A stretch of DNA of 38,812 bases from a virus. The DNA lies in the IMG/VR virus record IMGVR_UViG_3300042731_004073, positions 1-38,812 of that record. One strand, 5' to 3'. The position numbers and the translations under genes are program-made. Positions within the stretch are counted from its first letter, which is position 1, and the number at the start of each line of letters is the position of its first letter. Shown piece after piece: positions 7,277 through 29,067 of this stretch. Under the pieces are notes generated by a model. The model was not told the DNA's origin and ran no database searches. It was given only the letters and a program-made list of their open reading frames with translations.

Positions 7277-10200
7277 ATGTCAACAACAGATAGGCAAAAT
7301 AGACTTCTATTGGCTGAGGACTGGAAAACAATATACCAGAGTTTCAAGTATGCAGATTTTCAGAGTTACGATTTTGATAATCTACGTAGAACAATGATTT
7401 CTTATATTAGAGAAAACTATCCAGAAGATTTTAACGATTATATTGAAAGTTCAGAATATCTTGCACTGATTGATTTAATTGCATTTTTAGGTCAAAACTT
7501 AGCCTTCCGTACAGACCTTAATGCTAGAGAAAATTTCATCGAAACAGCAGAGCGTAGAGAAAGCATTCTCCGCCTAGCTAGATTAATTAGTTACAATGTT
7601 AATCGTAACACTACTGCAAACGGACTTTTAAAAATTGAAAGTATCAGTACAACTGAAGACGTTTTTGATTCAAACAACAACAATTTAAGTGGACAAACAA
7701 TTCTTTGGAATGATGCAACAAATACAGATTGGTATGAACAATTTGTAAAAATATTAAATGCATCGTTGCCTGCAAATTCACGTTTTGGCCGTCCTATAAA
7801 AAAATCCACAGTTGATGGTGTTGTTACAGAACAATACAGATTTAATGGTACAAATACCGATGTGCCAGTATATTCATTTACAAAAACTGTGGATAACAAA
7901 AGTAGAAAGTTTGAAATTACAAGTGTAAGTATTGATACACAAGACAATTACATTTATGAGGAAGAGCCATTTCCTGGAAACAGATTAGCTTTCTTGTATA
8001 GAGATAATGGCCAAGGCGCAGGCAGTAGCAACAGCGGCTTCTTTTTACATTTTAGACAAGGTACACTAAACAATAATGTTTTTAGTATTACTAGCCCGGT
8101 ACCAAATACCACAGTGAATATTGATACAGACAATGTCAACGATACAGATGTTTGGCTATACAAACTAGACAGCAACGGTAATGAACAAGATTTATGGACA
8201 CAAGTAAGCAGTATCGAAGGAAATAACATTGTTTACAACAGTTTAGAAAAAGGCGTTCGTGACATATATGGAGTCCTTAGTAGAATTAATGATCGCATTA
8301 GTTTAATTTTCAGCGATGGAGTTTTTGGAACTCTACCAAAAGGTAGTTTCAAAGTATATTATAGAACAAGTTCAAATGAACAGTATAAAATTAACCCTGC
8401 AGATTTAGTTGGCATACAAATCCAAGTTCCTTACTTGAGCAAAAATGGAACTAACGAAACACTTAATTTAGTGCTAGAATTACAAAGTCCAGTGTCTAAC
8501 GCAGATACTAGTGAGTCTAATGAAAGTATTAAAACAAATGCTCCTAGTACATATTATACACAAAATAGATTGATTACAGCAGAAGATTATAACATTGGTC
8601 CTTTGGGTGTAAGTCAACAAATTATTAAAACCAAGAGCATCAACAGAACCAGTAGTGGAATTAGTCGTTACTATGATTTACGTGATGCGACAGGCAAATA
8701 CAGTAACACATTGATGTTTGGCGACGATGGTAGTGTTTTTGAAGAAACACTAAACAAAAAATTTAGTTTTGATTTTCAAACAAGAACAGACATTGAAGCA
8801 GTTATAAATTCACAAGTCACTGAAATTATTCGTCATACACAAACTAAGAATTTTTACTACAAAAACTTTGATAGAAATACTAGTGTTAGTGATTTAAATT
8901 ATACATGGCTTCCAACAACAAACGAAACAAATCAAAGTTCAGGTATATTTCAAGATCAGTTTGAAATTCCTATTGCTGTAGGTAGTTTTACAGCAAGTTC
9001 TATGCGTTTTGTTGCACCAGGTAGTTTAGTTAAATTTATACCCCCAAGTGGTTCTTGTTTTGATAAGAATAACGTTATTCAAGCAAGGACACCCAGTGTG
9101 GCAGGTGACAAAACATACATCTGGACAAAGATTGTAAGTGTATTTGAAAACGGTACAGTACAAGATATTGATAGTGATTTAGGACCAGTTATACTTAATG
9201 ATAATATTCCAGCTAATTCTCAACTAGCAGAAATTATTCCTGTACTTAATTTAGATATTGTTGCAGACACATTATCACAAATGGTTGATCAAATTTTTTC
9301 TTATAGAACGTTTGGTTTGAGATTTGATGTTGAAACTCTTAATTGGAAAGTAATAACAAACAACAATTTAGATACTGTTAACCCATTTAGCACAGGTAAA
9401 ACTGGAGATGCAACAGGAACCAATCAAGATAGTAGTTGGGTATTTTTGTTTGAAACAAATGGAGAAACTTACACTGTTACACACAGGGGATTAAGATACG
9501 TATTTGAAAGTGATGATCAAATACGTTTTTACTTTGATGGCAATGATAGAATTTATGATAGTAAAACTGGAAAGATTATTACAGATACCATTGACGTTTT
9601 GAGTATTAACACTAAACCAGATGAACTAGTTAGTTTTACGCAAGATTGGCGCTGGCAAGTAATTAGTGAATATAGAGACGAAGCTGGGTATGTTGATAGT
9701 AAAAAGTTAGAGGTTGGATTTGTTGATACAGACAGTGACGGTGTTATTGATGATCCAGACCTATTTACAGAAATTGTTGCTCCAGATTATTTGCCCGATA
9801 CAAAATATATATTTGCAAAAAAGATAATTCAAAATAATATAGAAACTTTTGAATATGCCGATGCAGACGAAAATTATATTATTGTTAAAAATACAGAAGC
9901 CGCTGTTGGTGCATTTAGTGATTACACAGGTAATGAAGTTTTTTATATTAGTAGTAAAGATGTGTTTAAAAAGTTTAATTCAACTCAAACAGCGTTGATA
10001 TTAGATATAAATTGGCAAGCATATAAAGGCAGAGATAAATTAAGATTTAATTATAAACACGCTGCTGCTGAAAATCGCAGGATAGATCCTAGCAGTAGTA
10101 ATATAATTGATCTATATCTACTTACAAAAACCTATGATATTGAATATAGAAAATATTTAAAAGGTGATATAGAAACTTTACCACTTCCACCTAGCAGTGA

Positions 10201-10741
10201 TTCTTTGTTTCTAAGTTACGGTCAAGATATCAAAAAAATAAAAAGTATTAGTGATGAAGTAATCTATCATCCTGTAAAATATAAACCATTGTTTGGTAGC
10301 CTAGCCGATGATGATTTACAAGCAACAATTAAAATTGTTAAAAATTCTAACAGAGTTGTAAACGATAACGATATTAAATCTCGTGTAATAGATAGTATGA
10401 ATGAATTTTTTGCACTAGAAAATTGGGACTTTGGCGAAACATTTTACTTCAGTGAACTTGCAGCATACATAATGAAACAAGTAGCACCTGATGTAGCAAG
10501 TATTGTTTTAGTACCAACAAGCGAAACACAGGTTTTTGGTAGTTTATACGAAGTTGTTTGCGAAAATGATGAAATTTTTGTTAATGCTGCAAATGTATCA
10601 AACGTGGAAATTATCGATAGTATTACAGCTTCAAGATTAAAAGCTCAAGGCAATGTAGTAACTAGCGACGAGGTGTTAAACACGGGTATACAAAGTAGCG
10701 AAACTAATACATATATTATTACTGAAGGAAATCAATATTAA
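7277..10741 (+). CDS. 6: Baseplate wedge subunit gp6, enlarged
   Basis: The first 115 residues (DWKTIYQSFKYADFQSYDFD, then IDLIAFLGQNLAFRTDLNAR) are typical of gp6, the J-like wedge protein whose dimers form the inner iris of T4-like baseplates. The C-terminal part (about residues 1003-1085, including DDDLQATIKIVKNSNRVVN and NWDFGETFYFSELAAYI) is also typical. The protein has 1154 residues against about 660 in T4, and the extra length is in the middle. A DTDSDGVIDDPD motif (about residues 815-826) looks like a calcium-binding DxDxDG loop of EF-hand or thrombospondin type. The start follows GAGGA. The stop overlaps the start of the giant gene (TAATG), so the two large wedge proteins are probably translated in a coupled way. 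Confidence 0.88.
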   Translation: MSTTDRQNRLLLAEDWKTIYQSFKYADFQSYDFDNLRRTMISYIRENYPEDFNDYIESSEYLALIDLIAFLGQNLAFRTDLNARENFIETAERRESILRLARLISYNVNRNTTANGLLKIESISTTEDVFDSNNNNLSGQTILWNDATNTDWYEQFVKILNASLPANSRFGRPIKKSTVDGVVTEQYRFNGTNTDVPVYSFTKTVDNKSRKFEITSVSIDTQDNYIYEEEPFPGNRLAFLYRDNGQGAGSSNSGFFLHFRQGTLNNNVFSITSPVPNTTVNIDTDNVNDTDVWLYKLDSNGNEQDLWTQVSSIEGNNIVYNSLEKGVRDIYGVLSRINDRISLIFSDGVFGTLPKGSFKVYYRTSSNEQYKINPADLVGIQIQVPYLSKNGTNETLNLVLELQSPVSNADTSESNESIKTNAPSTYYTQNRLITAEDYNIGPLGVSQQIIKTKSINRTSSGISRYYDLRDATGKYSNTLMFGDDGSVFEETLNKKFSFDFQTRTDIEAVINSQVTEIIRHTQTKNFYYKNFDRNTSVSDLNYTWLPTTNETNQSSGIFQDQFEIPIAVGSFTASSMRFVAPGSLVKFIPPSGSCFDKNNVIQARTPSVAGDKTYIWTKIVSVFENGTVQDIDSDLGPVILNDNIPANSQLAEIIPVLNLDIVADTLSQMVDQIFSYRTFGLRFDVETLNWKVITNNNLDTVNPFSTGKTGDATGTNQDSSWVFLFETNGETYTVTHRGLRYVFESDDQIRFYFDGNDRIYDSKTGKIITDTIDVLSINTKPDELVSFTQDWRWQVISEYRDEAGYVDSKKLEVGFVDTDSDGVIDDPDLFTEIVAPDYLPDTKYIFAKKIIQNNIETFEYADADENYIIVKNTEAAVGAFSDYTGNEVFYISSKDVFKKFNSTQTALILDINWQAYKGRDKLRFNYKHAAAENRRIDPSSSNIIDLYLLTKTYDIEYRKYLKGDIETLPLPPSSDSLFLSYGQDIKKIKSISDEVIYHPVKYKPLFGSLADDDLQATIKIVKNSNRVVNDNDIKSRVIDSMNEFFALENWDFGETFYFSELAAYIMKQVAPDVASIVLVPTSETQVFGSLYEVVCENDEIFVNAANVSNVEIIDSITASRLKAQGNVVTSDEVLNTGIQSSETNTYIITEGNQY

Positions 10742-13700
10742 TGGCATACGATAAAAATCAAAATGAGTATCCTGTTCCTGGGCGTGATGACAGCAAAAAA
10801 ACAAATAGTTCTTTATTGCCGAGATATTTTAGATCTGATGCAAACAAAAAATTTATTGGCAGCACACTAGATCAGTTAACTTCTCCTGGTGTTGTAGAAA
10901 AAATCAATGGGTTTGTAGGTCGCAGAGAATCGAAAGCAGTAAAAATTAATGATTCGTTTATTGCCGATGTATCCAAGCAAAGAGAAGACTATCAATTTGA
11001 GCCGTACACTGTTATTCAAGACGAAATTGGCAATATTACATATAATGCAGATTATTTAGATATTTTAGGCCAAATTTCTGCATTTGGAGGAAATGTAGAA
11101 AACCATGACAAGATATTTGCTCAAGAGTTTTATGCATGGAATCCGCATATTAATTTTGATAAATTTACAAATTTTAGAGAATATTATTGGTTACCAAATG
11201 GTCCGCAAGAAGTGCCTATAAAAGGACAAAGTAAAGAGGTTGTTAGTACATATAAGGTAACTCTTGTGGAAGATGATGATAATCAAGCGTTTGTTTTTTC
11301 GCCTGACGGTGTTACAAGAAACAAAATTTTAAAATTATATAGAGGACAAAAATATCGTTTTGTTGTTGATACACCTGGTCATCCTTTTGGTATTGCATTG
11401 AGTAGATTAAAAAAAGTACCATATTCTGATAGCACAGGTTATTTAGATAATTTGTATTTAGATGGTGTTAACATCATCGACGAATCAAAAAACACAGTTG
11501 TAAATAAAACAGATTTAGTTGAAGAAGGATTTGTTGAAAAAGGTGTTTTAGAATTTACAGTGCCTACAAATGCCCCCGATAACCTATATTATATTAGTCA
11601 AAACGATATTGACACAAGCGGTAATCTAAACATTTTTGACATAGAAGAAAACACTGAAATTGATGTAGAAAATGAAATAATAGGTAAAACATATTATACA
11701 ACTTCTGATGGTTGGCCGCTATCAAACGGAATGAAAGTATATTTTCAAGGAACAGTAACTCCTGAAAAATATGCTGAGGGTTTGTATTATGTAGAAGGAG
11801 TAGGAGAATCAATTCAACTTGTGTCTGCAAGTGATTTACAAGTTCCTGCTATTTTTACCCAAGACACACAAGTTCCTTTTGATGTAAATGGTTTTGACAG
11901 AGTTCCATTTGGAGATGCAAAAAGTTTTGCAGGAACCAAAGATTATATTTGTATTAATAGAAGTGATAAAAGCAGAAATCCTTGGGCTAGATATAACAGA
12001 TGGACACACAGAACTGTGATTGAAAAATCTGCAGAAATTAATAATCAGCCTATAGAAATACCGCAAGAATTACGAGCAAAACGTCCTATTATTGAGTTTG
12101 ACGCAAATTTAAGGTTGTTTAATCACGGCAATCAAGCTAAAAATGATGTAGACTTGGTTGATACATTTACTCAAGACGTTTTTAGCACAATTGAAGGAAG
12201 TATAGGCTACAATGTAGACGGCATAGATTTAGTTGAAGGTATGCGTGTATTATTCACAGCCGATCCTGATAGTTTAGTTAATGGTAAAATATTTCAAGTT
12301 AATGTTATTAGACACAACAATAGAGATCAATTAAGTTTAACAGAAACTATTGATACTGATCCAAGTTTAAATGATACAATTTTAATCAAAGATGGTGTAG
12401 AAAATGCTGGCAGAATGTTTTGGTACAATGGCCAAGAATGGATAGCAGCTCAAGATAAAACAGGTTTAAACCAGGCGCCTAAATTTGATTTATTTGATAC
12501 AAACGGTAATAGTGTTGGAGACGATACTGTATATGATAGTACAGAATTTACAGGAAATAGAATTTTTTCTTATCGTGTAGGCGAAGGATCTAACGATAAT
12601 GAACTAGGATTTCCTTTAACTTACAAAAACTTTGTAAACATAGGCGATATTGTTTTTGATTTTTCTTTACTAAACAGCACTTATAATTATAAAATAAATG
12701 GGGTATTTGATACTATAGATAGTGATGTATTGTATTTGCAAAAATATGAAAACAATACAATCACATATGAAAATGCATGGCGTAAGGCAGATATAAAAAG
12801 CCGTCAATATGTAATAAGAAAATATACAGGAGAAGATACAACAAATAATTTTCCAATTGATGTTTACGACAACAGTGCGGAACTAACTGATTTAGTTGTA
12901 CAAGTTTTTGTTAACAATGAATTTAAGTACGAAGGCACTGATTATGATTTTGTAAATATTAACAATACAAAGTTTGTTGCTTTTGAAAACAGTATAGAAT
13001 TCTCTGATATTGTTGTAATTAAAACACATAGTAATACCAAAAAAAATAAAAACGGATATTATGAAATTCCACATAACTTGGAACGCAATCCTTTAAACGA
13101 AAACATAACAGAATTTACTCTAGGTGAAGTGAACGATCACGTTGAAGGTATTGTAGCCGAAATAGTAAGTTCAAAACAAAAAGATTTTGAAGGCGCACAA
13201 CCTGGAGTTGGTAACTTACGTGATTTAGGAAACTTAACAAGATTTGGAAGAAAATTTGTACAACATTCTGGTCCATTAAATATACCAATGTATAATATTG
13301 TTTCAAAAAAAGCCAATGTTGTAAAATCTATAAGATATGCATCAAACGAATATCAAAAATTTAAAAGGAAGTTTATTCAATTAGCAACAGACAATTCATT
13401 TAATGGCACTGTAAAACAACAAGTAGATAGTATTTTTAAAACTTTAAATGAAGATAAAACTGAAAATATGAACTTTTACAGCACAGATATGGCAGGCACT
13501 GGCGGTAGTGTAGAAATACAATATGAAGTTTTAGATAATCGATTAAAAGTTTATGCTTTAAATCAAGTTTTCAATAAAAATACAATTAGCAACAAAGCAG
13601 TTTACGTTTATTTGAATGACGAACAATTAATACACAATTATGATTATGAGTTTACTGACACAGGTTTTATCGAATTTATCACAGATTTAAATAATGGCGA

Positions 13701-16700
13701 TATTATAAAAATATTTGAATATACTAACACCGAAGGCAGTTTTATTCCTCCAACTCCTACAAAGATTGGTATGTATCCTGCATACAAACCAGAAATATTT
13801 TATGATAACACCTATCAAACAGATTTTGACGAAAATGGCAATACCGTAGAAAATACTGGTCCTACAAATGTAATTAGAGGACACGACGGAAGTATAATTA
13901 TTGCCTTCAATGATTATAGAGATAATTTAATTCTAGAATTTGAAAAAAGAATTTACAATAATTTAAAAACAGAATACAATACAGACATTTTTGATATTTA
14001 CGATATTGTAGGTGGATTTAGTAGAAACACAGATATAACTAATGCAGATATTAACAATATTATTATTACTGATTTTATAAAGTGGTTAGATGTTGCACGT
14101 ATTGCTGATTATACTGAAAATAGATATACAGAATCTGGCAATACGTTTACTTACAATTATAGTCTGTCAACAAATATTGCAAATCAAAAATTGCCTGGTT
14201 TCTGGAGAGGCGTTTATATTCAAGCGTATGATACTGATCGTCCTCATACACATCCTTGGGAAATGTTAGGATTTTCTAGCGAACCTAAATGGTGGCAAGA
14301 AGTTTATGGACCTGCTCCTTACACAAGCAATAACTTGATACTGTGGACAGATTTGCAAAACGGAACTGTTAGAGAACCAGGTAAACCTGTAAAAGTAAAT
14401 TCAAAATTTGTTAGGACAAATTTATTAAACCATATTCCGGTAAATGAGAATGGACAATTATTATCTCCGTTAGAAAGCGGATATGTAAATAATTTCAGTT
14501 TTGCTAGACAGAATAATTTAGAATACGTGTTTGGTGATCACGCTCCTGTTGAAACAGCTTGGAGACGTAGTAGTGACTATCCGTTTGCTTTATTATTAGC
14601 AATGTTATTATTGCGTCCTGCTCATACAATGGGTATTGGACTAGACAGGTCAAGAATTAATCGCGATAAAGTAGGAAATTTAGTTTATAGTAACACTAAC
14701 AAAAGAATCAAGCTAGACAATATTTTATTTCCGCAACTAGACAAAAGTATTACAAGTGGTTTTTTAAATTATATTAGTAACTACATTAATACTGACACTG
14801 AGTTTACTTACAGTCAATATGTTAGTGATATAAAAAATATAAAAAATAAACTTGGATTTAAATTAGCAGGATTTGCTAACAAAGATAAACTAAAATTAGT
14901 TTTAGATAGTAAAACACCTTTAAATCAGGGTAATGTATTTGTACCATTTGAAAATTATAATATACAATTCCGTACATCATCTCCGCAGGAAGTGATAACT
15001 TATAGCGGTGTTGTAATCGAAAAAGTAGCAAGAGGCTATAAACTTACTGGATATGATAAAGAACAACCTTACTTTTTTTATAATCCTGCGCAAGAACTTG
15101 CAAATGATCCCTTTGTAAGGGTAGGAGGAATCAGTGAAAGTTTTGTTAAATGGGCAGAAAACAAAACTCTTGTAGCAGGTAAAATTGTAAATTACAATGA
15201 TGTTTATTATAGAGTAAAAGTAAATCATACTACAAGTTCGGTATTTGAACAAGACAAATATGCAAGATTGCCAAGTCTTCCGCAAACAGGAGGTACTGGT
15301 GCATTTTTTAGAAAAAAATTCAGTTTAACTGCTAAAAAATTAAACTATGGTACAGTTTTCAATCAAGAACAGGATTTAGTTGATTTTTTATTAGGATACG
15401 AAAATTATTTAAAAAACAAAGGTTTTACTTTTGATTTTTATAACAATCAAACAGAAGCAATAGAAAATTGGAAATTGGCAGCAAAAGAATTTTTGTTTTG
15501 GACAACGCAAAATTGGGCTGCTTCTAGTAGCATAACTTTGAGCCCTGCTGCAAATAATTTACAATTTTCAAAAGAATATTTTGTTGTAGATAATATTTTT
15601 AATAGTTTTTATGGCTTTCCTATTTTAGATCAAAATAGTCAAAAAATTAAAGACAAATTTATGAATCTATATAGAGATAATAATAATCAATTTAATTTAT
15701 CAAGTGATACCAATGGCATTTACATGATTAAATTGCCGGTGATACAAAAAGAACATGTGGTGTTTGTAGATAATAATACAGTGTTCAACGATACTTTGTA
15801 CAGTCCAAATACTGGTTATAGACAAGATAGACTAAAAGTTGTGGGTTACAGAACAGATGAATGGAACGGCGGCTTTGATATTCCAGGATTTATATATGAT
15901 GATGCTAAGGTTACTGAATGGGAAACGTATAAAGATTACAACGTTGGCGATATTGTTAAATTTAAAGAGTTCTATTATACAGCAGCTATATCTCATAGTG
16001 GAACTGAAAATTTTAATTACAATCTTTGGAACCAACTACGTGAAAAACCATCAAGTAAGTTAGTACCAAACTGGGAATACAAAACCAATCAGTTTGCTGA
16101 TTTTTATGACTTAGACAGCGATAATTTTGATAGCGAACAACAACGACTTGCACAACATTTAATTGGGTATCAAAAACGTAATTATTTGTCAAATATTATA
16201 CAAGATGATATAAGTCAATATAAATTTTATCAAGGCTTTATACAAGATAAAGGTACAACTAATAGTGTTACAAAGTTATTTGATAAACTAGGAAGTGCCA
16301 ATAAAGATAGTATCGAATTATTTGAAGAATGGGCTATTAGAGTAGGACAATATGGTGCAGTAACAAGTTTTGACGAAGTTGAATTTAAATTAGATGAAAA
16401 GCAATTTAGAATAGAACCTCAATTAATCGAACTTGTATCTCAAGTTGATAATTCACGTACTGATTTAGTTTATCAGTATCCTAGAAAAGATGTTTATATC
16501 GCTCCTACTAACTATGATACAGGATTTTTACCTACACTAAATGTTTCAGAAGAATATACCAAAACAGCAGGGTATGTAAAACTAGACCAAATTAATTTTA
16601 TAACAAAACAACAAATTGATGTTTTAAGTTTAGATATAGATAGTGTAGATATTGGCTCTTATATTTGGGTACCACAAGATGGAATTAGTTGGAACGTTTA

Positions 16701-19700
16701 CAAGCACGTTGTTTCTAATAATTCTGTTCATAGTATAGAAAAAACTGATTTAGGTTTTAAAGTTTATTTTATTAGTCCAATTACATTTACAGAAGACACT
16801 ATAATTGGGTTAAACAATATTAATGATGAAATAAATGGTTTCTATATTGCAACCAATATACAGGCTAATATGGTTATAGGCGAAAACTCTTCAAAAATAT
16901 TACCAAATATTGAGATAGAAACAGACACACCTATTACAGAAACTTTTATAGATCTAAGCGATAGTACTTTAGGTATTGTTTCAGAATTTAATTCTCGTAG
17001 GGTTAGTCAACCTGAAGATATTAACGAAATATTAAAACAGTTTGATTTGGACGAAAATGACAGATTTTGGATTGACAATGTAGAAAACAATCAAAGTGCT
17101 ACATACGATAGTAGTGTAATTAGACAAAGTATACAAAATATCACTGCGCCTGAAGAAAGCAGTTACGAATTTGGCAGAAGTGTATCAGCAAGTTATAATA
17201 ATACTATAATGGCAGTTGGCGCTCCAGACATAGGATTAAATGGAAAAGTTTATGTTTATACTCGTAGTAGTGAATCTTTAAATTATAATTTGACCCAAAC
17301 ATTAGAACCCTTACCTCAGTACCATAACAACGGCGATTTTGGATCAAGTGTTGCTGTGACAAAAAACGGTCAGTATTTGTTCGTTGGCGCACCTACTGCA
17401 AGTGAAGTAAAATCTAGATATAAAGGTGTACTCGATCCACTAGAAACCTATCTCGCAGGCGATATTGTTAGTTCTAAAGGAACTCTTTGGAAAGCAAAAA
17501 ATGATGTAACTGTAGAGAGTAGCACTATTAATCTTGATAGTCAAGATTGGGAACAAGTTAGAAAAATTACAAGCGATCCAGATGCAGACGCAATGGCGTA
17601 TTCTAATCAGGGTGTAATTTATGTTTACGAAAAATTAATTGACAATAGCTTTGACTTAGTAGAAATTATTTGTAGTTCTCAACCCGCCACTGATGAAAAG
17701 TTTGGATATGGAATTAAAGTTGTTTCACCAGGCGATTTTGATCATAATCTATTTGTAAGAAGTTTTGCAAATAACGGTCGTGTTTACATACTGAAAAATG
17801 GAGGCCAATCTGCTGTTAATGATTTTATTTACAACATAGATGAGAGATACAGAGGTGAATGGCAAACAGTTTCAAAGTATATTGAAAACGAAATTGTAAC
17901 TTATGCTAATAATATGTATCAAGCTAATCAAACAGTATTTCCTGGAAATCCGTGGAACCCTACTTTATGGAATCAATTAGATGATTTTGTTGACTATACA
18001 GGATACGTTCCAAACAATTTATCTGATACAACTGATATATTGAATGAAGATAGTAGCGGTTTTGGTTTAGCTACAGATGTTGGCATTACATTTGATATTA
18101 GTGGCAATGGCGAAGTTTTAGCGTTAAGTGCTATTTTAAATGGTTATGAGTATAGAGTTGCAATCTACAAAAAAGAAAATGGAAGATTTGTTTATTCACA
18201 AAATATTGATAGCCCTATAGACGATGAACAGTTTGGTTACAGTATTTCATTAAATGATTTAGGAAACAAATTGGCAATAAGTGCTCCTAATTCGAATGCC
18301 AATGGGATACTTAACGGACAAGTATACGTTTATACATTACAAAATCAGCAATTTGAATTAGATCAAAACTTATTTTCACCGTCAAATGTTAAAAACAACT
18401 ACTTTGGTAGATATGTAAAACTTGATGGCGATAAATTAGCCGTTACTAGTAGAGCAGGCGATACCACATTTGATTATGAATTTGATAATGGTGAACTTGT
18501 TTTTGATAATGATGCGACAAAAATTGTTGATAAAATTGAAGGAAATAATCAAGTTTATATTTTTGAAACATTAGGTAATAAATTTGTATATGCTGAAAAA
18601 CTATATACAGTCGTTGATACCACAGATGCAAATTATTCATACGGTTATTTAAACAGAAATCATTTGTATCTAGTATCGCCTTCGTTGCCTCTTGATGCAA
18701 TTTTACAAGATAGTACTAACAATAAAGGACTTATCCAAGATTATAGAGCAGACATAAATGAAACAGCTTGGAAAATAAATGATAGTGTTAAATCTTATAT
18801 AAACCTTAGTCAAATAAAAGGTGCATGGCTATACGATAATAAAACAAAAGATTTGATAACCTATCTTGATTATATTGATCCAATTCAGGGACGCATTGCA
18901 GGGCCTGCCGAACAAGAATTGTCCTACAAGTTGTATTATGATCCTGCGGTTTACAATTCAGGAAGTACAAATACGGGTAGTAGAGATCTTTGGGGAAGCA
19001 ACCAAGTTGGAAAACTATGGTGGAATCTTGATACTATAAAATGGTACAATCCTTATCAAGGAGATTTACAATATAAGTCTAATACCTGGAACAGAATTGT
19101 CGAAGGATTTAGCGTTGACATTTATGAATGGGTAGAAAGTGAATATATTCCAAGCGAATGGGATACACTTGCTGATACAACTGCTGGTTTAGCAGAAGGT
19201 ATAAGCGGTACAAGTTTGTACGGAGATGAAACATACGTTTTTGCAAATAGTTATGATTCGGTTACTGGACAACCAGTTCCAAAATATTATTTCTGGGTCA
19301 AATCAAAAACAACATTACCTAACACATATGGTAGAAAAATCAGTGCTTTAGATGTAGAAAATTTAATTGCAAATCCTGAAAGCCAAGGTTATAGATTTAT
19401 CAATATGTTTGACGGTAAAACATTTGCATTACACAATGTAAGAAATCTTGTCAAAGATTCTGATACCGTACTACACATTGATTATTATATAAATGACAAT
19501 ACAGAAAATAATATTCATAGTGAATACCAATTGTTAACCGAAGGTTTAGCGAGTAGTAAGCCAAATTCTGATATTGTAAATAAATGGATTGACAGTTTGG
19601 TCGGTTATAATTTACAAAATAAACAATTGCCCGATACTAGTTTAAGTATTGCAAGAAGATACGGAATATTAAACACACCAAATCAAAGTATGTTTGTAAA

Positions 19701-22700
19701 CAGAAAAGAAGCTCTTAAACAATTAATCGAAAGAGTTAACGCTATAATGACTCAATACGTTGTTGTTGATGAATTTGATATTTCGCCGTTAATGCAAACT
19801 GATCCAATTCCTAGTAAATTTACAAATTTATGGGATACCGAAATAGAAAGCGAAAGTTTACTTAGATTTATCGGCACAGCTAAAATTGAGCAAGCAAAAC
19901 TTACACCTACTATTGTAGATGGTACTATTACTGATGTTACTGTAACAAATTCTGGCAGAGGTTACATTGATAGTAATTACACTAGCGGCAATACAAGACA
20001 CGGTCCTACTGTTTCAATTGAAGGAACAGGAACAGGTGCAGAAATCAAAACGTACATTAATAATTTAGGACAAATTACAAATGTCGAAATTATTAACGGC
20101 GGCAAAAATTATCTAGATAACACTACGCTTATTGTTCGTCCGTTTAGTGTTCTTGTGAAAAACGACAGTGACATCGGCGGGTTTTGGGCAGTTTACAATT
20201 GGATTAGTAGTACAGGCGAATGGTTTAGAAATTATATACAGGATTACGATGTAACAGACTATTGGAATTATCAAGATTGGTACGCCGAAGGATACAGTAG
20301 CGAAACAGCAATAGACTTTGTTATTAAAGGCGCATATGCACTAGACGAAACACCTGATGTAATTGGTAATGTTGTAAAGATTGAAAATATAGGCACAGGT
20401 GGTTGGTTGTTATTAGAAAAGATTGACAGTCAAGAATTTGTTGATTATACGGTTAATTATAAAACTATAGGCCGTCAAAACGGAACAATACAGTTTAGCA
20501 GCCAATTATATCAAAGCGATAACTTTGGTTACGACAAACAAATTTATGATACTAGTTTTTATGATAGAGAACCTAGTGAAGAAATTAGAATTATTTTAAA
20601 AACTTTAGAATCTAATATTTTTGTTGATCAATTAGAAGTAGAATGGAATAAATTATTCTTTAGCAGTGTTCGTTATGCTATAAGTGAGCAAGTTGACGTA
20701 GATTGGATTTTTAAATCAAGTTTTGTTACAGCAAAACACAATGTTGGAGAATTACAACAAAAAGTTACATATCAAAATGACAATTTGGTAAATTATCAAC
20801 AATACATTGAAGAAGTAAAACCATATAGTACAAAAATTAGAGAATATGTTAGTGCTTATGAAAAAGTTGAACCTACAGAAACAAGTATTACTGATTTTGA
20901 TTTACCGCCTAGCTATGATTCTATTGTAGGTAAAGTAATACCAGAAGCAATTAAATTTATAAATAATGAATTTACAAATATTGAATCAGATGTATATCAG
21001 TATCCAAAAAGACATTGGTTGGATAACGTTGGTTTTGAAATTAAAGAATTTGTTATTTTTAATGGTGGTAAAGGATATACAAATACTGCCAATGTTACTG
21101 TTAGCGGTGGCGGCGGTCCTACATTAGAAGGGTTTGCATATTTAGGCGGTAGTAGTATACAGTTTATCGATGTTGATACTACCGGAGCAAAATATTATAA
21201 CACTCCAACTGTAACTATAAACGGTAGTTTGAAAGACGATGGCGAAGATGCAATTGTTTACGCTATCATTGGAAACAATCTTGTGCGTAATACACATATG
21301 CGCATGAAGTTTGACAGAGTATCGGGCAACTATTTGTTTACTACTTTAGACGAAACTGAAACATTTTTAGGCAATGGCGGTTTGACAGAGTTTAATCTCA
21401 AATGGCCAGTAAGTACACGTAGTGCAGATATTTCAATTATTGTTGATGGAGTAGACCAGCTTATTAGCGATTTTGTTGTTTCAAATGAATTAGACAAAAC
21501 CCGCAGTTTTGAAAGATATACAGGTAGAATAACATTTACAACAGCACCGGCAAACAATGCAGAAGTTGTAATAAATTACAAAAAGTCAACCGACTTGCTT
21601 ACAGCAGCAGACAGAATCAATTTCTTTTATAATCCTACAACAGGCATGCCAGGCAAAGACCTTGCACAGTTGATGGACGGTGTTGATTACGGCGGTGTTC
21701 AAATGGACAGCATTGGTTTTGGTGAAAACAAAGGATTTGAGTTACAGCCGTTTGGTGTAGATTTTGATACATTTGATATAAACAATGAAGATGAAATAAT
21801 TGTTTTAGATGGAAGTACACAAACAGTAAAATTAAGTTCTGTCTTAGAAGCAGGTATTACGTACAACGTGTACTTAAATAACGTTCGTATTGACGATCCT
21901 GCATATGATGGAGTTACAGAACTAAAAAATCCTAATGCAAAAATGATTTCGCCAGTTGGAGACGGTATTACAGATACAATTTTCTTAGACAGCGATGTAA
22001 TTGATACACAGCTAGACGATATAGTTGTTGTAAGAAAAGAAACTAGCGATGGTAGTTTTACTCCAGAAAGCACAGCTTTCGATGTAAGTTTAAAAGGCGG
22101 CACATTTGAAACTTCAACTGCAACTGGTATCGATGCTGGAGAAATTATAGTTGACGGAGACGGGTTTGTCACTGAAACTACCTCAAAAGGTCCTGAAGAA
22201 GAAGTTCCGGGACAAGTATTAGACACAGTTGATATTCAAGTATACAATAGAACAACAGACGGACAAGGAATGATTGCTGTCCGTAACTATATTACAGATG
22301 GGACAACGTTAGAATATAAGTTCGAATCGTACGCACAAACTAACGAAACTCTTATTGTTAGATTAGGCAGTGAAATTCTTGATAATAGTGACTTGAATAT
22401 AGATTGGATTAATAAAACTATTTCGTCAATCGATAGTAGTGTATTTAGTGAAGGTCAAAATTTAAATATTTTGACTATTGGAGCTAATGGAGTTGACATT
22501 ATTGATAGTGATAATATTGTTGCCGACGGTGTTACTTTATATTATGAAATTCCAGTTAAGTTTTCTGATAACATGAGTTCGTTTGTAACAGTAAATGGAC
22601 AATTTAGAGAAGAATTAGTAGATTATGGTTTTAACACAAATGACAGAGGTTTTGTAACTTTAGAATTTCCAACAAAATTGCCAGCAGGGGCTATAATTGG

Positions 22701-24501
22701 CTATACTATCTATGATGGAAAAATAAATCAATTTAGTCGAATGGTTATTGACAGTAGTATGACTACCGATGGTATTAACAAAGTTCATAGATTTGATAAT
22801 GACATATCTTTACCAGTGATAAGAAAGCCACTGGCACAAAATATACTTGTGCAAAGACAAGAAGGAAATAAATTCTTAAATCCTGGATATAGAAAATCAT
22901 ATACCATGACTGTATCACGTGTATATGATATAGATGCCTGGCAATTTGACAATCAAAGATTATTAGATACAAGTGATTTTGTAGTCTATATAAATTACGA
23001 AATAATTGACAGAAATGATTTTACATATGATCCTGTAAATGGACGTATTATTATTACAAAAGAAAATATTGGTAGTCCTGGTGATTATTTAGAAATATTT
23101 GTTATTAAAGATGCAGAATATTATTTTATTAATACAACTTTAGAAATAATAAATGGCGATGCAATTGATGATCCAAATACTGGCGATGTAGTTGATTTTA
23201 GACTAACTGATGATAGCACAGTAGTATCTGCAACAATTGAAAGTTTCACAAGAAATAATGGTGTTTTAAATCTTGAATTACAAGGATACGTTAGAGAATT
23301 ATTTAATTTACAAAGTGCCGACGACACTCCACCTGTTGTAGCAAGTGTCGACTTTGGAAGTGACAGAGATAGTACACAAGCAACTTTAGGTAAAATTAGT
23401 TTAAAAGAAACTGATGTATTAGTTTTAAAAGAAGCACCTGGGGATTGGGAAACAGTCGACATTTATGTATTCAGTAATCACGATATAAACGAATTTGAAA
23501 GAAATAGTTATAATGTAATTTGGAATACAACTGAAGCACCAGAAGGTACAACGGAATATATCAACAAAAATTTACTAAGTAAAGGATATATTTCACTTCA
23601 AAAACCTGCAGTAAGTGCAAACTACGTTTGGATCTTTAAGAATGGTTTAATATTGACACCTGAAGTTGATTACAAGATTTCAAGTGACAAACAAGGTATA
23701 CAGTTATATGAAAAAGTATTACCATCTGATACATTAGATGTGTTACAATTTGCTGCCCCAATTAGTAAGCCTAAATTTGGATATAGAATTTTTAAAGATA
23801 TGCTCAACAGATATCACTTTAAGCGTCTAAACAGAGATAATGAATATGAATTACAGCAGCCTTTAAATTATTATGATCAAGTTATTCAATTAAAAGATTC
23901 GACTGGTATACAAGCACCTAATGATGAGTCTAATTTACCTGGTGTAATATGGATTGACAAAGAACGCATCGAATATTTTGCAGTAGATGGTAATTTATTG
24001 CGTAAATTACGCAGAGGTACACTGGGTACAGGGATAAAAGAAATTCATCCTGTAAATTCAAAAGTTGTAGGACAAGGTATCGAAGAAAATATTCCATATA
24101 AAGACGAAGTACAAAAAACTGTGTTTATTGGAGATAGCAGTTCAAAACAATTTTTGCTTGATTTTATACCAAATAGTGTAAATGAAATTGATGTTTTCTT
24201 AGGCGGTGTTAGGTTAAGAAAAGACAACGTTGTAGAATTTGACAAAACTAAAGACCAAGATTCTCCACAGGCCGATATAACATTTGCACCAGAATATACA
24301 ATTGAACAAATTGTTTGGGGAGATAATATTGTAACTGCATTGTATCTAGCCGATTATATCGATCCTCCTGCAGACGGCACAAGAATAGAAATAGTAAGAA
24401 GAACAGGTAAAATTTGGAATGATCCTGGAAAATCAATAGCAGATAGTGAAAATCAAATTGCTAAATTTATAACAGACAAAACAATATCGCTACCCCGATA
24501 A
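10741..24501 (+). CDS. Giant 4586-residue baseplate/virion structural protein (gp7 position)
   Basis: One uninterrupted frame encodes a protein of roughly half a megadalton. The N-terminus (SLLPRYFRSDANKKFIGSTL; ADYLDILGQISAFGGN; NFREYYWLPNGPQ) matches the large structural protein that follows gp6 in marine T4-like phages, where T4 has the wedge initiator gp7 (about 1032 residues). Recognisable parts are: a cupredoxin-like beta domain (about 165-300, with YRGQKYRFVVDTPGHPFGIA); a core with FGDHAPVETAWRRSSDYPFA (about 1265-1285); four CBM-like modules (about 1464-2417); a seven-blade FG-type propeller (about 2141-2680); two Gly-rich beta domains with GRGY/GGKGY motifs (about 3073-3125 and 3441-3490); and a C-terminal block with WIDKERIEYF (about 4403). 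No signal peptide or catalytic motif was seen. I infer a peripheral baseplate scaffold with surface-binding modules. The gp7 equivalence is positional. Confidence 0.75.
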   Translation: MAYDKNQNEYPVPGRDDSKKTNSSLLPRYFRSDANKKFIGSTLDQLTSPGVVEKINGFVGRRESKAVKINDSFIADVSKQREDYQFEPYTVIQDEIGNITYNADYLDILGQISAFGGNVENHDKIFAQEFYAWNPHINFDKFTNFREYYWLPNGPQEVPIKGQSKEVVSTYKVTLVEDDDNQAFVFSPDGVTRNKILKLYRGQKYRFVVDTPGHPFGIALSRLKKVPYSDSTGYLDNLYLDGVNIIDESKNTVVNKTDLVEEGFVEKGVLEFTVPTNAPDNLYYISQNDIDTSGNLNIFDIEENTEIDVENEIIGKTYYTTSDGWPLSNGMKVYFQGTVTPEKYAEGLYYVEGVGESIQLVSASDLQVPAIFTQDTQVPFDVNGFDRVPFGDAKSFAGTKDYICINRSDKSRNPWARYNRWTHRTVIEKSAEINNQPIEIPQELRAKRPIIEFDANLRLFNHGNQAKNDVDLVDTFTQDVFSTIEGSIGYNVDGIDLVEGMRVLFTADPDSLVNGKIFQVNVIRHNNRDQLSLTETIDTDPSLNDTILIKDGVENAGRMFWYNGQEWIAAQDKTGLNQAPKFDLFDTNGNSVGDDTVYDSTEFTGNRIFSYRVGEGSNDNELGFPLTYKNFVNIGDIVFDFSLLNSTYNYKINGVFDTIDSDVLYLQKYENNTITYENAWRKADIKSRQYVIRKYTGEDTTNNFPIDVYDNSAELTDLVVQVFVNNEFKYEGTDYDFVNINNTKFVAFENSIEFSDIVVIKTHSNTKKNKNGYYEIPHNLERNPLNENITEFTLGEVNDHVEGIVAEIVSSKQKDFEGAQPGVGNLRDLGNLTRFGRKFVQHSGPLNIPMYNIVSKKANVVKSIRYASNEYQKFKRKFIQLATDNSFNGTVKQQVDSIFKTLNEDKTENMNFYSTDMAGTGGSVEIQYEVLDNRLKVYALNQVFNKNTISNKAVYVYLNDEQLIHNYDYEFTDTGFIEFITDLNNGDIIKIFEYTNTEGSFIPPTPTKIGMYPAYKPEIFYDNTYQTDFDENGNTVENTGPTNVIRGHDGSIIIAFNDYRDNLILEFEKRIYNNLKTEYNTDIFDIYDIVGGFSRNTDITNADINNIIITDFIKWLDVARIADYTENRYTESGNTFTYNYSLSTNIANQKLPGFWRGVYIQAYDTDRPHTHPWEMLGFSSEPKWWQEVYGPAPYTSNNLILWTDLQNGTVREPGKPVKVNSKFVRTNLLNHIPVNENGQLLSPLESGYVNNFSFARQNNLEYVFGDHAPVETAWRRSSDYPFALLLAMLLLRPAHTMGIGLDRSRINRDKVGNLVYSNTNKRIKLDNILFPQLDKSITSGFLNYISNYINTDTEFTYSQYVSDIKNIKNKLGFKLAGFANKDKLKLVLDSKTPLNQGNVFVPFENYNIQFRTSSPQEVITYSGVVIEKVARGYKLTGYDKEQPYFFYNPAQELANDPFVRVGGISESFVKWAENKTLVAGKIVNYNDVYYRVKVNHTTSSVFEQDKYARLPSLPQTGGTGAFFRKKFSLTAKKLNYGTVFNQEQDLVDFLLGYENYLKNKGFTFDFYNNQTEAIENWKLAAKEFLFWTTQNWAASSSITLSPAANNLQFSKEYFVVDNIFNSFYGFPILDQNSQKIKDKFMNLYRDNNNQFNLSSDTNGIYMIKLPVIQKEHVVFVDNNTVFNDTLYSPNTGYRQDRLKVVGYRTDEWNGGFDIPGFIYDDAKVTEWETYKDYNVGDIVKFKEFYYTAAISHSGTENFNYNLWNQLREKPSSKLVPNWEYKTNQFADFYDLDSDNFDSEQQRLAQHLIGYQKRNYLSNIIQDDISQYKFYQGFIQDKGTTNSVTKLFDKLGSANKDSIELFEEWAIRVGQYGAVTSFDEVEFKLDEKQFRIEPQLIELVSQVDNSRTDLVYQYPRKDVYIAPTNYDTGFLPTLNVSEEYTKTAGYVKLDQINFITKQQIDVLSLDIDSVDIGSYIWVPQDGISWNVYKHVVSNNSVHSIEKTDLGFKVYFISPITFTEDTIIGLNNINDEINGFYIATNIQANMVIGENSSKILPNIEIETDTPITETFIDLSDSTLGIVSEFNSRRVSQPEDINEILKQFDLDENDRFWIDNVENNQSATYDSSVIRQSIQNITAPEESSYEFGRSVSASYNNTIMAVGAPDIGLNGKVYVYTRSSESLNYNLTQTLEPLPQYHNNGDFGSSVAVTKNGQYLFVGAPTASEVKSRYKGVLDPLETYLAGDIVSSKGTLWKAKNDVTVESSTINLDSQDWEQVRKITSDPDADAMAYSNQGVIYVYEKLIDNSFDLVEIICSSQPATDEKFGYGIKVVSPGDFDHNLFVRSFANNGRVYILKNGGQSAVNDFIYNIDERYRGEWQTVSKYIENEIVTYANNMYQANQTVFPGNPWNPTLWNQLDDFVDYTGYVPNNLSDTTDILNEDSSGFGLATDVGITFDISGNGEVLALSAILNGYEYRVAIYKKENGRFVYSQNIDSPIDDEQFGYSISLNDLGNKLAISAPNSNANGILNGQVYVYTLQNQQFELDQNLFSPSNVKNNYFGRYVKLDGDKLAVTSRAGDTTFDYEFDNGELVFDNDATKIVDKIEGNNQVYIFETLGNKFVYAEKLYTVVDTTDANYSYGYLNRNHLYLVSPSLPLDAILQDSTNNKGLIQDYRADINETAWKINDSVKSYINLSQIKGAWLYDNKTKDLITYLDYIDPIQGRIAGPAEQELSYKLYYDPAVYNSGSTNTGSRDLWGSNQVGKLWWNLDTIKWYNPYQGDLQYKSNTWNRIVEGFSVDIYEWVESEYIPSEWDTLADTTAGLAEGISGTSLYGDETYVFANSYDSVTGQPVPKYYFWVKSKTTLPNTYGRKISALDVENLIANPESQGYRFINMFDGKTFALHNVRNLVKDSDTVLHIDYYINDNTENNIHSEYQLLTEGLASSKPNSDIVNKWIDSLVGYNLQNKQLPDTSLSIARRYGILNTPNQSMFVNRKEALKQLIERVNAIMTQYVVVDEFDISPLMQTDPIPSKFTNLWDTEIESESLLRFIGTAKIEQAKLTPTIVDGTITDVTVTNSGRGYIDSNYTSGNTRHGPTVSIEGTGTGAEIKTYINNLGQITNVEIINGGKNYLDNTTLIVRPFSVLVKNDSDIGGFWAVYNWISSTGEWFRNYIQDYDVTDYWNYQDWYAEGYSSETAIDFVIKGAYALDETPDVIGNVVKIENIGTGGWLLLEKIDSQEFVDYTVNYKTIGRQNGTIQFSSQLYQSDNFGYDKQIYDTSFYDREPSEEIRIILKTLESNIFVDQLEVEWNKLFFSSVRYAISEQVDVDWIFKSSFVTAKHNVGELQQKVTYQNDNLVNYQQYIEEVKPYSTKIREYVSAYEKVEPTETSITDFDLPPSYDSIVGKVIPEAIKFINNEFTNIESDVYQYPKRHWLDNVGFEIKEFVIFNGGKGYTNTANVTVSGGGGPTLEGFAYLGGSSIQFIDVDTTGAKYYNTPTVTINGSLKDDGEDAIVYAIIGNNLVRNTHMRMKFDRVSGNYLFTTLDETETFLGNGGLTEFNLKWPVSTRSADISIIVDGVDQLISDFVVSNELDKTRSFERYTGRITFTTAPANNAEVVINYKKSTDLLTAADRINFFYNPTTGMPGKDLAQLMDGVDYGGVQMDSIGFGENKGFELQPFGVDFDTFDINNEDEIIVLDGSTQTVKLSSVLEAGITYNVYLNNVRIDDPAYDGVTELKNPNAKMISPVGDGITDTIFLDSDVIDTQLDDIVVVRKETSDGSFTPESTAFDVSLKGGTFETSTATGIDAGEIIVDGDGFVTETTSKGPEEEVPGQVLDTVDIQVYNRTTDGQGMIAVRNYITDGTTLEYKFESYAQTNETLIVRLGSEILDNSDLNIDWINKTISSIDSSVFSEGQNLNILTIGANGVDIIDSDNIVADGVTLYYEIPVKFSDNMSSFVTVNGQFREELVDYGFNTNDRGFVTLEFPTKLPAGAIIGYTIYDGKINQFSRMVIDSSMTTDGINKVHRFDNDISLPVIRKPLAQNILVQRQEGNKFLNPGYRKSYTMTVSRVYDIDAWQFDNQRLLDTSDFVVYINYEIIDRNDFTYDPVNGRIIITKENIGSPGDYLEIFVIKDAEYYFINTTLEIINGDAIDDPNTGDVVDFRLTDDSTVVSATIESFTRNNGVLNLELQGYVRELFNLQSADDTPPVVASVDFGSDRDSTQATLGKISLKETDVLVLKEAPGDWETVDIYVFSNHDINEFERNSYNVIWNTTEAPEGTTEYINKNLLSKGYISLQKPAVSANYVWIFKNGLILTPEVDYKISSDKQGIQLYEKVLPSDTLDVLQFAAPISKPKFGYRIFKDMLNRYHFKRLNRDNEYELQQPLNYYDQVIQLKDSTGIQAPNDESNLPGVIWIDKERIEYFAVDGNLLRKLRRGTLGTGIKEIHPVNSKVVGQGIEENIPYKDEVQKTVFIGDSSSKQFLLDFIPNSVNEIDVFLGGVRLRKDNVVEFDKTKDQDSPQADITFAPEYTIEQIVWGDNIVTALYLADYIDPPADGTRIEIVRRTGKIWNDPGKSIADSENQIAKFITDKTISLPR
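15130..17990 (+). repeat. Four carbohydrate-binding-module-like repeats encoded in the giant gene
   Basis: Four segments share the pattern Y/L-x-x-G-x-I-V-x-(5)-Y/W-x-A, mostly followed by W/Y and a short acidic or basic end. They are LVAGKIVNYNDVYYRVKV (about residues 1475-1495), YNVGDIVKFKEFYYTAAI (about 1731-1748), YLAGDIVSSKGTLWKAKN (about 2234-2251) and YIENEIVTYANNMYQANQ (about 2378-2395). Copies two to four end with W-N-Q-L or W-E-Q-V. This is the layout of CBM5/12-type (chitin-binding-like) small beta domains often found in phage tail proteins. The last two copies sit inside the propeller region. Confidence 0.5.
17161..18720 (+). repeat. Seven FG-type beta-propeller repeats encoded in the giant gene
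   Basis: Seven blades start with FG (YG in the last) at residues about 2144, 2200, 2321, 2441, 2498, 2555 and 2634. Examples are EFGRSVSASYNNTIMAVGAP, QFGYSISLNDLGNKLAISAP and DFGSSVAVTKNGQYLFVGAP; several continue to G-x-VYVY. Uninterrupted blades are 56-57 residues apart. The two intervals of about 120 residues each contain one CBM-like insert. The pattern matches FG-GAP/integrin-alpha-type propellers, though the calcium-binding loops are not the canonical DxDxDG. Confidence 0.6.
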
Positions 24502-24527: not shown

Positions 24528-25130
24528 ATGATTAATGAACAAAGTGGCGTACATATAGAAGGACACATTAAAATACACAATCCAGAATCTGGACACGTAT
24601 TTGTTAATAAGCGTAATGCTATTCATTATGAAAATATGAGTATCAGTCTTGCTGAAAGTTTAGGCAATGCTGGCGAAGGTTTCATTTATGAAATGGCATT
24701 TGGTAATGGTGGCACAAGTGTTGATCCGACAGGTATTATTACATATCTTACACCTAATAGCACTGGAACAAATGCAAGTTTGTATAATCAAACTTACATG
24801 AAAGTTGTTGACGACCGTTCCGTTAACAACGTTGATCCACAGCGTAATAAGATAGAAACCCGCCACGTTACAGGTACAAATTATACAGACATTGTCGTAA
24901 GTTGTTTACTAGATTACGGTGAACCAGACGGACAAGATGCTTTTGACACTGCAACTGATACTGAAAATCAATATGTATTTGATGAGTTAGGTTTAAAGGG
25001 TTATGCAGCAGACGGCAATGGTAGATTGCTTACACATGTAATTTTCCATCCTGTACAAAAATCATTAAACAGACTTATTCAAATTGATTATACTGTAAGA
25101 GTACAAAGTTTGAGTGGGGGTAACAGCTAA
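24528..25130 (+). CDS. Conserved virion structural protein of marine T4-like phages
   Basis: This 200-residue protein starts MINEQSGVHIEGHIKIHNPE and continues with NKRNAIHYENMSISLAESL, GFIYEMAFGNGGTSVDPTGI (about residues 52-71) and a C-terminal block LLTHVIFHPVQKSLNRLIQI. I recognise this sequence type from structural proteins located before the fibre genes in cyanophage-like genomes, but know of no assigned biochemical role. Composition is beta-rich and soluble, with no catalytic motif, membrane helix or signal peptide. Its place between the giant wedge protein and the fibres, with its own late promoter, suggests a connector between baseplate periphery and fibres. That is an inference. Its stop overlaps the first fibre start by one base (TAATG). 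Confidence 0.6.
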   Translation: MINEQSGVHIEGHIKIHNPESGHVFVNKRNAIHYENMSISLAESLGNAGEGFIYEMAFGNGGTSVDPTGIITYLTPNSTGTNASLYNQTYMKVVDDRSVNNVDPQRNKIETRHVTGTNYTDIVVSCLLDYGEPDGQDAFDTATDTENQYVFDELGLKGYAADGNGRLLTHVIFHPVQKSLNRLIQIDYTVRVQSLSGGNS

Positions 25131-27157
25131 TGGCATATCAAGTTCCGTTCACAGACCAAGCAAACAAAGGCGAGATAGTAGTAGAAGATGGAGCCCCAAA
25201 TACTGAAACAAGTATGACATTACCGGGTCGCTTATCGACAGACTATGGTTTAGCTGTAAATACAAATTTTTTACATTTGTTAGAAAACTTTGCAAATGCA
25301 AGTCCTCCTGCAAATCCAGTTGAAGGGCAACTATGGTATGATACAACAACTGAAGTAGATCAATTAAAAATTTATGATGGCACAAATTGGGTTGCAGCAG
25401 GCGGCTTGAAAAAAGGTAGCTTTGAACCAGATATTTCAAACAGTGTAAAAGGCGATCTTTGGGTCAATACTAGTACAAGTCAACTGTATCTATATACAGG
25501 AAGCGGATGGTTACTGGTTGGTCCAAACTATATAGATGGTAACAAAAGTGGAGCTCTTGTAGAAGAAATTCCTGATACAGCTGGAAATATAAGAACTGTT
25601 GTAATTAACTATATCGAAAATATACCAGTAACAATTTATACGAGGGTTGAATTTTCACCTAAGACACCTTTTGCTGGATATAGCAGCAGTGTGCCATTGA
25701 AAGTTGGAGTAAACTTTAACAAATCGTTGGATGCTAAATTTAATGGCACAGCTACTCTTGCTGAAAATTTATTAATCGGTGGAGCCTCTGTTCCTACAAC
25801 AACGGTAATGAGAAACAACGTTGTAAATCAAGTTACAGAAAAATTACAAATAAAAGCCAATCAAGGTATTGAAATTGGTAATGCAAAAACATTGAGTTTA
25901 CTAGTAGAAGGTAATAATGGTATTATAGAAAATACTATACCCGGTGCACCTATTGATTTACGTGTTAATAATAATGGCACATTTACTATTCCAATCAGAG
26001 TAAAAAGTAATACTAATATTGGTATTAATAATTTAAATCCAACTGAAAGTTTAGACGTTGTTGGAAATATAAAAACTGATAGCAATATAAATGTTGCCGG
26101 AACAACACAAAGTAATGATCCTACTACAGGTGCTATAACAACAGCAGGCGGCCTAGGTGTTGCTAAAAACTTAAATATCGGAGGCAACTTTTTAGTTGAA
26201 GGAAATTCAACAGTTCAAAACATTTTACCAGATCAAGCCAATGTAAGAAATATTGGTTCAAGTGTATTGCCATTTGATACACTTTATGCAAATCGAATTA
26301 CAGGTAATTTAACAGGCAACGTTACTGGTAACGTTAGCGGTACAGCTGGTAGCACAGGAAAATTAAACAGTACAACAACGTTTGGAATGACAGGCCACAT
26401 TACCGCAGGCAGTTTTACGTTTGATGGCCAAACAGGCGGCAATGTAAAAACTTTTGCTACACTAGCTTCGCCTTCAATAATTTCAGATCAAACTGCTGCA
26501 AGTTCTATTAATAAAGTTACAGACACATTATTAGTAAATCAAGGAGGAGTCCTTGTAAGTGCTACTCCTAATCAACTAATAGGTGCATTGGAAGTCCTTC
26601 CTATAGGAACAATTACTATGTTTGGAGGAACAACAGCACCAGAGGGGTGGTTTATTTGCGACGGCCTTCCGCAAGATAGGAATACGTACATTGAATTAGC
26701 AAATAAAATAGGGTGGGTCCCGGCTGATCCTGAAACTCATTTTTATGGTACTGTAACAGATCCTGTAAACGAATTTACTATTCCTGATTTACGTGGTGTA
26801 TTTCCTACAATGGCAACCGATGTGTCAAGTAGAGGTCTAGCCACATTAGGAAGTAATGCAATTACAAATGATAGTTTAGAATTAGGCAGTAGAGGCGGCG
26901 AAGAAGAAGTCACAATCACTCAAGAAAACTTGCCTGATCACACACACGATTTACAAGATGGAGATGACAATCAATATTATGCAACATCAACTGGCACTTA
27001 CACAGGAACTGGAAGCGTAAGCGGAAATGGAGATACTGCCGGAACTGGTACACGTTTATTAAACAGCGGCGGTATGATTGATGTAACAAATTCTCCATTG
27101 AATATTTTAAACCCATATTTGGCACTTAACTTTATCATTTATCACGGAGTATCGTAA
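25130..27157 (+). CDS. Tail fibre 1 with C-terminal phage tail collar domain
   Basis: This 675-residue fibre has an N-terminal block shared with the next two genes (NFLHLLENFANAS, EGQLWYDTTTE, LKIYDGTNWVAAGG, then GDLWVNTSTSQLYLYTGSGW ending LLVGPNYI). The middle carries fibrous beta motifs such as GNLTGNVTGNVSGTAGST. The C-terminus is a tail collar domain: LPIGTITMFGGTTAPEGWFI (about residues 489-508), FTIPDLRGVFP (about 547), then LPDHTHDLQDGD (about 600), whose H-x-H resembles the metal-binding histidines of T4 gp12-type tips. The protein ends NPYLALNFIIYHG. It is probably a trimeric receptor-binding fibre on the baseplate; the collar end would contact the host surface. Confidence 0.82.
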   Translation: MAYQVPFTDQANKGEIVVEDGAPNTETSMTLPGRLSTDYGLAVNTNFLHLLENFANASPPANPVEGQLWYDTTTEVDQLKIYDGTNWVAAGGLKKGSFEPDISNSVKGDLWVNTSTSQLYLYTGSGWLLVGPNYIDGNKSGALVEEIPDTAGNIRTVVINYIENIPVTIYTRVEFSPKTPFAGYSSSVPLKVGVNFNKSLDAKFNGTATLAENLLIGGASVPTTTVMRNNVVNQVTEKLQIKANQGIEIGNAKTLSLLVEGNNGIIENTIPGAPIDLRVNNNGTFTIPIRVKSNTNIGINNLNPTESLDVVGNIKTDSNINVAGTTQSNDPTTGAITTAGGLGVAKNLNIGGNFLVEGNSTVQNILPDQANVRNIGSSVLPFDTLYANRITGNLTGNVTGNVSGTAGSTGKLNSTTTFGMTGHITAGSFTFDGQTGGNVKTFATLASPSIISDQTAASSINKVTDTLLVNQGGVLVSATPNQLIGALEVLPIGTITMFGGTTAPEGWFICDGLPQDRNTYIELANKIGWVPADPETHFYGTVTDPVNEFTIPDLRGVFPTMATDVSSRGLATLGSNAITNDSLELGSRGGEEEVTITQENLPDHTHDLQDGDDNQYYATSTGTYTGTGSVSGNGDTAGTGTRLLNSGGMIDVTNSPLNILNPYLALNFIIYHGVS

Positions 27158-29034: not shown

Positions 29035-29036
29035 CG

Positions 29037-29043: not shown

Positions 29044-29067
29044 ACATAAGCACGAGGAATAACAATA

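Follow-up and report, generated by a model that had tools for sequence, protein, structure and literature searches.

Residues 2138-2684 of a 4,586-aa giant virion structural protein are predicted, by concordant profile and structure computations, to fold into a seven-bladed FG-GAP_2 propeller. Alignment of relatives further showed that insertions are nearly restricted to the B-C and D-A loops of this propeller, which by standard topology form one face. The protein is encoded by a large, T4-like jumbo phage genome, IMG/VR record IMGVR_UViG_3300042731_004073, and the whole stretch analysed (38,812 nucleotides) is referred to here as the window. On sequence comparison, the scaffold around the propeller is common to jumbo phages and the propeller is an insertion into it.

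Blade repeats and predicted fold

A sequence-only reading of the window had proposed seven FG/YG blade starts, and their positions are exact: FG at residues 2144, 2200, 2321, 2441, 2498 and 2555, and YG at 2634. The six FG dipeptides compare with 1.73 expected in shuffled sequences (P = 0.005), which is weak evidence alone, and the repeats were therefore tested independently. The FG-GAP_2 profile (PF14312) matched the whole protein with an E-value of 6e-10 and the region with 5.6e-14, where its 52.5 bits exceed the curated cut-off of 23 and identify the region as a family member. A blade-5 HMM, built solely from blade 5 of relatives with the window excluded, was then searched against the 4,586-aa protein. 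It scored 79 bits on blade 5, 25.8 on blade 1 and 20.8 on the N-terminal half of blade 2, with weaker scores for blade 4 (8.0 bits) and, after a gap of ∼50 residues, for the C-terminal half of blade 2 (3.8 bits); among 500 shuffled regions the highest score was 5.9 bits. Blades 3 and 7 were not detected by this HMM in the 4,586-aa protein, and their assignment therefore rests on the structure model. The strand motifs were found as described: blades 1, 2 and 5 contain [VIL][GS]AP (the (V/I)GAP/ISAP strand), blades 1, 3, 5 and 6 the G-x-VYVY-type strand. The two long FG-FG intervals each correspond to one blade plus one insert.

An AlphaFold2 model of residues 2085-2710, computed from a 36-row alignment (A3), gave a confident seven-blade propeller with the inserts on loops (pLDDT 86.6, pTM 0.86). 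Its best Foldseek matches in the PDB are integrin-alpha heads (E ∼2e-11, probability 1.00), with a TM-score to the target of up to 0.60, a value lowered by the inserts. The consecutive four-stranded blades of the FG-GAP_2 family are thus present in both the AlphaFold2 and Foldseek results. When the A3 sequence profile was compared with all PDB sequences, integrin alpha-4 (7e-6) and alpha-6 (8e-6) ranked first, so that the profile search also found integrin-alpha FG-GAP propellers as its best matches; a single-sequence phmmer search of the PDB returned nothing significant for the propeller, and a profile was needed. A model of an insert-free relative, L019 (pLDDT 86.8, pTM 0.87), contains exactly 28 core strands (7 × 4) and matches integrin heads and the seven-blade WD40 protein G-beta with a TM-score to the target of up to 0.69. 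The 28 strands and the full-length matches to seven-blade rings favour a closed ring, as judged from these matches.

The possibility that a chance run of FG dipeptides lies within another beta-rich fold draws on the modest significance of the FG count (only P 0.005) and on the failure of the single-blade profile to detect blades 3 and 7. It is extremely improbable and was rejected: Pfam, the profile search, AlphaFold2 and Foldseek all agree on a propeller, which for practical purposes refutes it.

All features mapped here lie on the plus strand. N-terminal strands (residues 2108-2135, nt 17062-17145; AlphaFold2 and isolate alignment) precede blade 1, and the Wxx..WxV hairpin before blade 1 appears to be part of the scaffold common to isolates lacking the propeller, the isolate alignment at this seam having been read by eye. 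Blade 1 (residues 2138-2193, nt 17152-17319) is supported by Pfam, AlphaFold2 and the blade-5 HMM. Blade 2 (residues 2194-2315, nt 17320-17685; AlphaFold2, blade-5 HMM and alignment) is split by an insert between strands B and C, and blade 3 (residues 2316-2435, nt 17686-18045; AlphaFold2 and alignment) has an insert after strand D, ahead of blade 4. Blade 4 (residues 2436-2491, nt 18046-18213) and blade 5 (residues 2492-2548, nt 18214-18384) are both defined by AlphaFold2 and the blade-5 HMM, and blade 6 (residues 2549-2627, nt 18385-18621; AlphaFold2 and alignment) has a hairpin extension in its B-C loop. Blade 7 (residues 2628-2684, nt 18622-18792) is supported by AlphaFold2, the alignment and the L019 model. 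The propeller lies where the sequence-only reading had placed it (17161-18720) and is slightly longer, spanning nt 17152-18792 (residues ∼2138-2684): with the last two strands of blade 7 reaching residue ∼2682, its end lies near nt 18790 rather than 18720.

The domain resembles FG-GAP_2 propellers and integrin alpha heads in its seven four-stranded blades, FG start and (V/I)GAP strand. The I domain of integrins is likewise a domain inserted into propeller connections, comparable to the phage inserts. Unlike integrin heads, the phage domain has CBM5/12-like inserts, lies inside a 4,586-aa structural protein and has no calcium motif in the window: a search for the DxDxDG-type motif of integrin A-B loops (PF01839) found none there and any match in only 1 of 64 sequences. 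FG-GAP propellers of the same fold occur in giant eukaryotic viruses and in a few phage proteins in BFVD, but these are separate proteins, and the BFVD listing names no connection between them and a wedge scaffold. Two of the separate phage proteins with similar predicted propellers are A0A2L0UZX4 (Atu_ph07) and H6WG31 (cyanophage S-TIM5), one of them annotated as a hemagglutinin. An uncultured-phage fragment, A0A6J5L0K2 (27% identical), may be a true homologue of the propeller.

Modules and variation on one propeller face

Profile computations assign both ∼63-residue propeller inserts to CBM5/12-like modules. The module in the blade-2 B-C loop (residues 2228-2277, nt 17422-17571) was found by Pfam CBM_5_12 with an E-value of 0.003 on the piece, below the curated cut-off, and by a module-2 family HMM with an E-value of 6e-9. 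The other module, which follows strand D of blade 3 and precedes strand A of blade 4 (residues 2371-2419, nt 17851-17997), is above the Pfam CBM_5_12 cut-off (E 1.1e-6). Further CBM5/12-like modules lie outside the propeller at residues 1471-1500 (nt 15151-15240; E 1.3e-5) and 1726-1768 (nt 15916-16044; E 4e-4), the latter absent from the six isolate homologues aligned. CBM5/12 (PF02839) membership is supported with an E-value of 1e-11 over three stretches of the giant protein and, in the propeller region, by 29 bits against a cut-off of 26.2. The AKWW-type chitin-binding aromatic pair (WW motif) of CBM5/12 is absent from all 64 sequences. The earlier description of the inserts as binding modules therefore holds for family membership but not for the canonical chitin-binding motif; because this pair is absent, glycan binding by the modules may be lost. 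CBM5/12-like folds could also serve as structural spacers.

Relatives were collected by scanning viral contigs with the conserved C-flank, and the best 80 of at least 596 confirmed relatives were kept. Among these 80, the flank-to-flank distance ranges from 491 to 1,349 residues, FG-GAP_2 was found in 63/63 propellers scanned, and CBM_5_12 in 51 of the 63. The propeller lineage turns up in many metagenomic contigs. Inserts vary among the relatives, which may have none, a CBM-like module, a block of ∼520-650 residues, or extra modules at other sites. In a clade of 27 the blade-2 B-C segment measures 521-655 residues (e.g. in L086:2076-3779), with a CBM-like start followed by a conserved block; this ∼500-aa block matched no consistent Pfam family. 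Since some relatives have neither module, the modules are not essential. L005, a close relative with 75% identity in the region, has one more CBM-like module, located between blades 3 and 4, and modules therefore change on short time scales.

Many of the 64 aligned sequences are only 22-30% identical to the window, yet the seven-blade strand framework aligns throughout. A-B loops measure 6-11 residues and most C-D loops 9-14, and long inserts are located at 7D-1A, 1D-2A, 2B-2C, 3D-4A, 4B-4C and 6B-6C. Only one C-D loop has an insert: 3C-3D holds a CBM-like module in 8 sequences, all from one clade, and a strict rule of insertion on one face only was dropped on account of this clade. A tree built from 600 flanking residues requires a minimum of 2, 4, 3, 3, 3 and 8 changes in the six B-C/D-A loops, against 1 in the C-D loop. 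The B-C/D-A loops thus account for at least 23 changes by insertion or in length, versus 1 in C-D (binomial P ∼1e-6 if loops are equal); without the 6B-6C extensions the counts are 15 versus 1 (P ∼3e-4). In the standard propeller topology, one face carries both the B-C and the D-A loops, and integrins use this face for ligands; the concentration of changes in these loops therefore makes one propeller face variable. These loops may simply be more tolerant of insertions.

The scaffold and its gene neighbourhood

The giant gene (nt 10741-24501) was identified from its ORF, its match to phrog_10938 (1069 bits) and its homologues. It sits directly downstream of a gene for a gp6-like baseplate wedge subunit (nt 7277-10741; phrog_10646, E 8e-296, and phrog_219), which is preceded by a gp25-like wedge subunit gene (nt 6787-7224; phrog_43 and phrog_261). 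These wedge genes neighbour the giant gene in the window and in isolates alike, and the baseplate label of the giant protein derives from them. Its position directly after the gp6-like gene is that of T4 gp7, but an HHalign comparison of T4 gp7 with all parts of the giant protein family gave a probability of 0.2% or less. T4 gp6, gp7, gp8 and gp10 were rejected as homologues, family-profile comparison having given no homology. The proposed T4-like baseplate is thus upheld by the gp25- and gp6-like gene neighbours and not by homology to these four T4 proteins. The PA5oct homologue of the giant protein is annotated as detected in virions (ESI-MS/MS).

Three consecutive fibre-type genes (25130-30597, plus strand), encoding 675, 625 and 509 aa, are related in their N-terminal halves (BLASTP E 1e-27 to 1e-40, 28-38% identity), and the first bears a Phage Tail Collar domain. 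Their sequences suggest an array of paralogous fibres that use a common anchor. A possible radical-SAM enzyme is encoded near the tail genes (36252-37625, plus strand; Pfam E 3e-5, below cut-off); Atu_ph07 and Phosso likewise have a radical SAM gene near the giant gene.

The giant protein resembles the phrog_10938 proteins of RaK2-like and PA5oct-like jumbo phages, with homology over the N-terminal ∼2,040 residues and again after ∼2690, and these phages have the same gene order, the gp6-like wedge gene followed by the giant gene. For the homologues from PA5oct, Atu_ph07, Phosso, SCTP-2, Vibrio phage 2.275.O and fEgEco12, the alignment covers residues 1-2040 at 26-31% identity and resumes beyond residue 2690. 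The intervening segment, 741 residues in the window (residues 2040-2780), corresponds to 341 residues in PA5oct, 1,378 in Atu_ph07, 1,373 in Phosso, 472 in SCTP-2, 259 in Vibrio phage 2.275.O and 201 in fEgEco12. Unlike the window, none of the six isolates checked (0/6) has an FG-GAP domain at this site, where Pfam matched neither FG-GAP nor CBM, and a tblastn search with the propeller against 50,697 isolate phage records gave no match. As the six isolates lack FG-GAP there and differ in length, the propeller is a lineage-specific occupant of a variable site. LamG-like and CBM-like domains read by eye in the isolates' occupants had no Pfam support and are not claimed. In rhizobial jumbo phages (L109:9456-13589 and L112:7447-11565, both minus strand) the site is occupied by ∼1,375 aa (741 in the window), among which several G-rich YTSxPTVxVxGGxGxGA-like repeats occur; Pfam gave no convincing match.

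Possible functions of the propeller

The arrangement suggests a receptor function. The likeliest reading, which we favour slightly, is that the propeller is a lineage-specific, exchangeable display domain on the tail or baseplate scaffold, probably adhesive, acting as an auxiliary adhesion platform. It would form a rigid platform at the distal end of the virion. Present in several copies, the propeller and its variable-face modules would attach with low affinity to glycans on the host surface or to other receptors. Such binding would aid adsorption alongside the true tail fibres, with the constant face or edge packed against the particle. Host or surface specificity would be adjusted as modules are gained, lost or exchanged. 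In standard topology the chain's entry point (blade 1) and exit point (blade 7) are both on the variable-loop side, so the variable face could point toward the particle.

A precedent exists in siphophages, where CBMs in loops of "evolved Dit" baseplate proteins bind the host (PMC7291167). As in those "evolved Dit/Tal" proteins, carbohydrate-binding-type modules here occupy loops of a tail-tip protein and are variably present among relatives. Their Dit is galectin-type and unrelated to the FG-GAP propeller, the CBM type differs, and host binding, proposed for the propeller modules, has been shown for them (PMC7291167).

The main rival, less probable though a serious contender, gives the propeller an architectural role, as a rigid spacer or as a docking hub for fibres, whiskers or neighbouring wedges, with the modules as protein-protein contacts or filler. 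FG-GAP and WD40 propellers commonly mediate protein-protein interaction, the modules lack the canonical sugar-binding pair, CBM5/12-like domains occur in other tail-type proteins of solved particles (All3316 and phage tail fibre or spike entries), and the three paralogous fibre genes, alike in their N-terminal halves, lie downstream in the window. Relatives of the scaffold nevertheless manage without a propeller, which is hence not needed for assembly, and the strong turnover of modules on one face resembles adaptation to outside targets more than a fixed internal contact. The wide variation in occupancy and size of the site across the broader family, together with module gain and loss, would also fit neutral elaboration, in which a loop tolerates insertions and the propeller and modules are passengers with no selected function. 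This is improbable given that the seven-blade framework persists across the 64 divergent sequences, that A-B and C-D loop lengths are nearly constant, and that every member scanned among the best 80 of at least 596 relatives retains FG-GAP_2.

The open-access literature searched contains no work joining FG-GAP, phage and baseplate; a search on beta-propeller, phage and FG-GAP returned only unrelated work, and no propeller is mentioned in the RaK2 papers. Both fold and modules are already known; their context is new, and no description of the combination was found in that literature. The analysis yields precise, expressible domain borders, and FG-GAP_2 plus CBM5/12 within phrog_10938 provides a marker for the lineage.

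A bolder and rather doubtful extension of the display-platform reading is that an integrin-like propeller serves a widespread uncultured jumbo-phage lineage as a one-faced plug board. A giant wedge-type protein would hold several copies of it, and small lectin-type modules and the ∼500-aa block would be exchanged on the B-C/D-A loops to retarget attachment apart from the tail fibres. The tail fibres of myophages are usually taken as the variable host-range part. Here, variation concentrates on one face of an integrin-like propeller within the largest structural protein, and the baseplate scaffold itself would thereby be a site of adhesion-module exchange.
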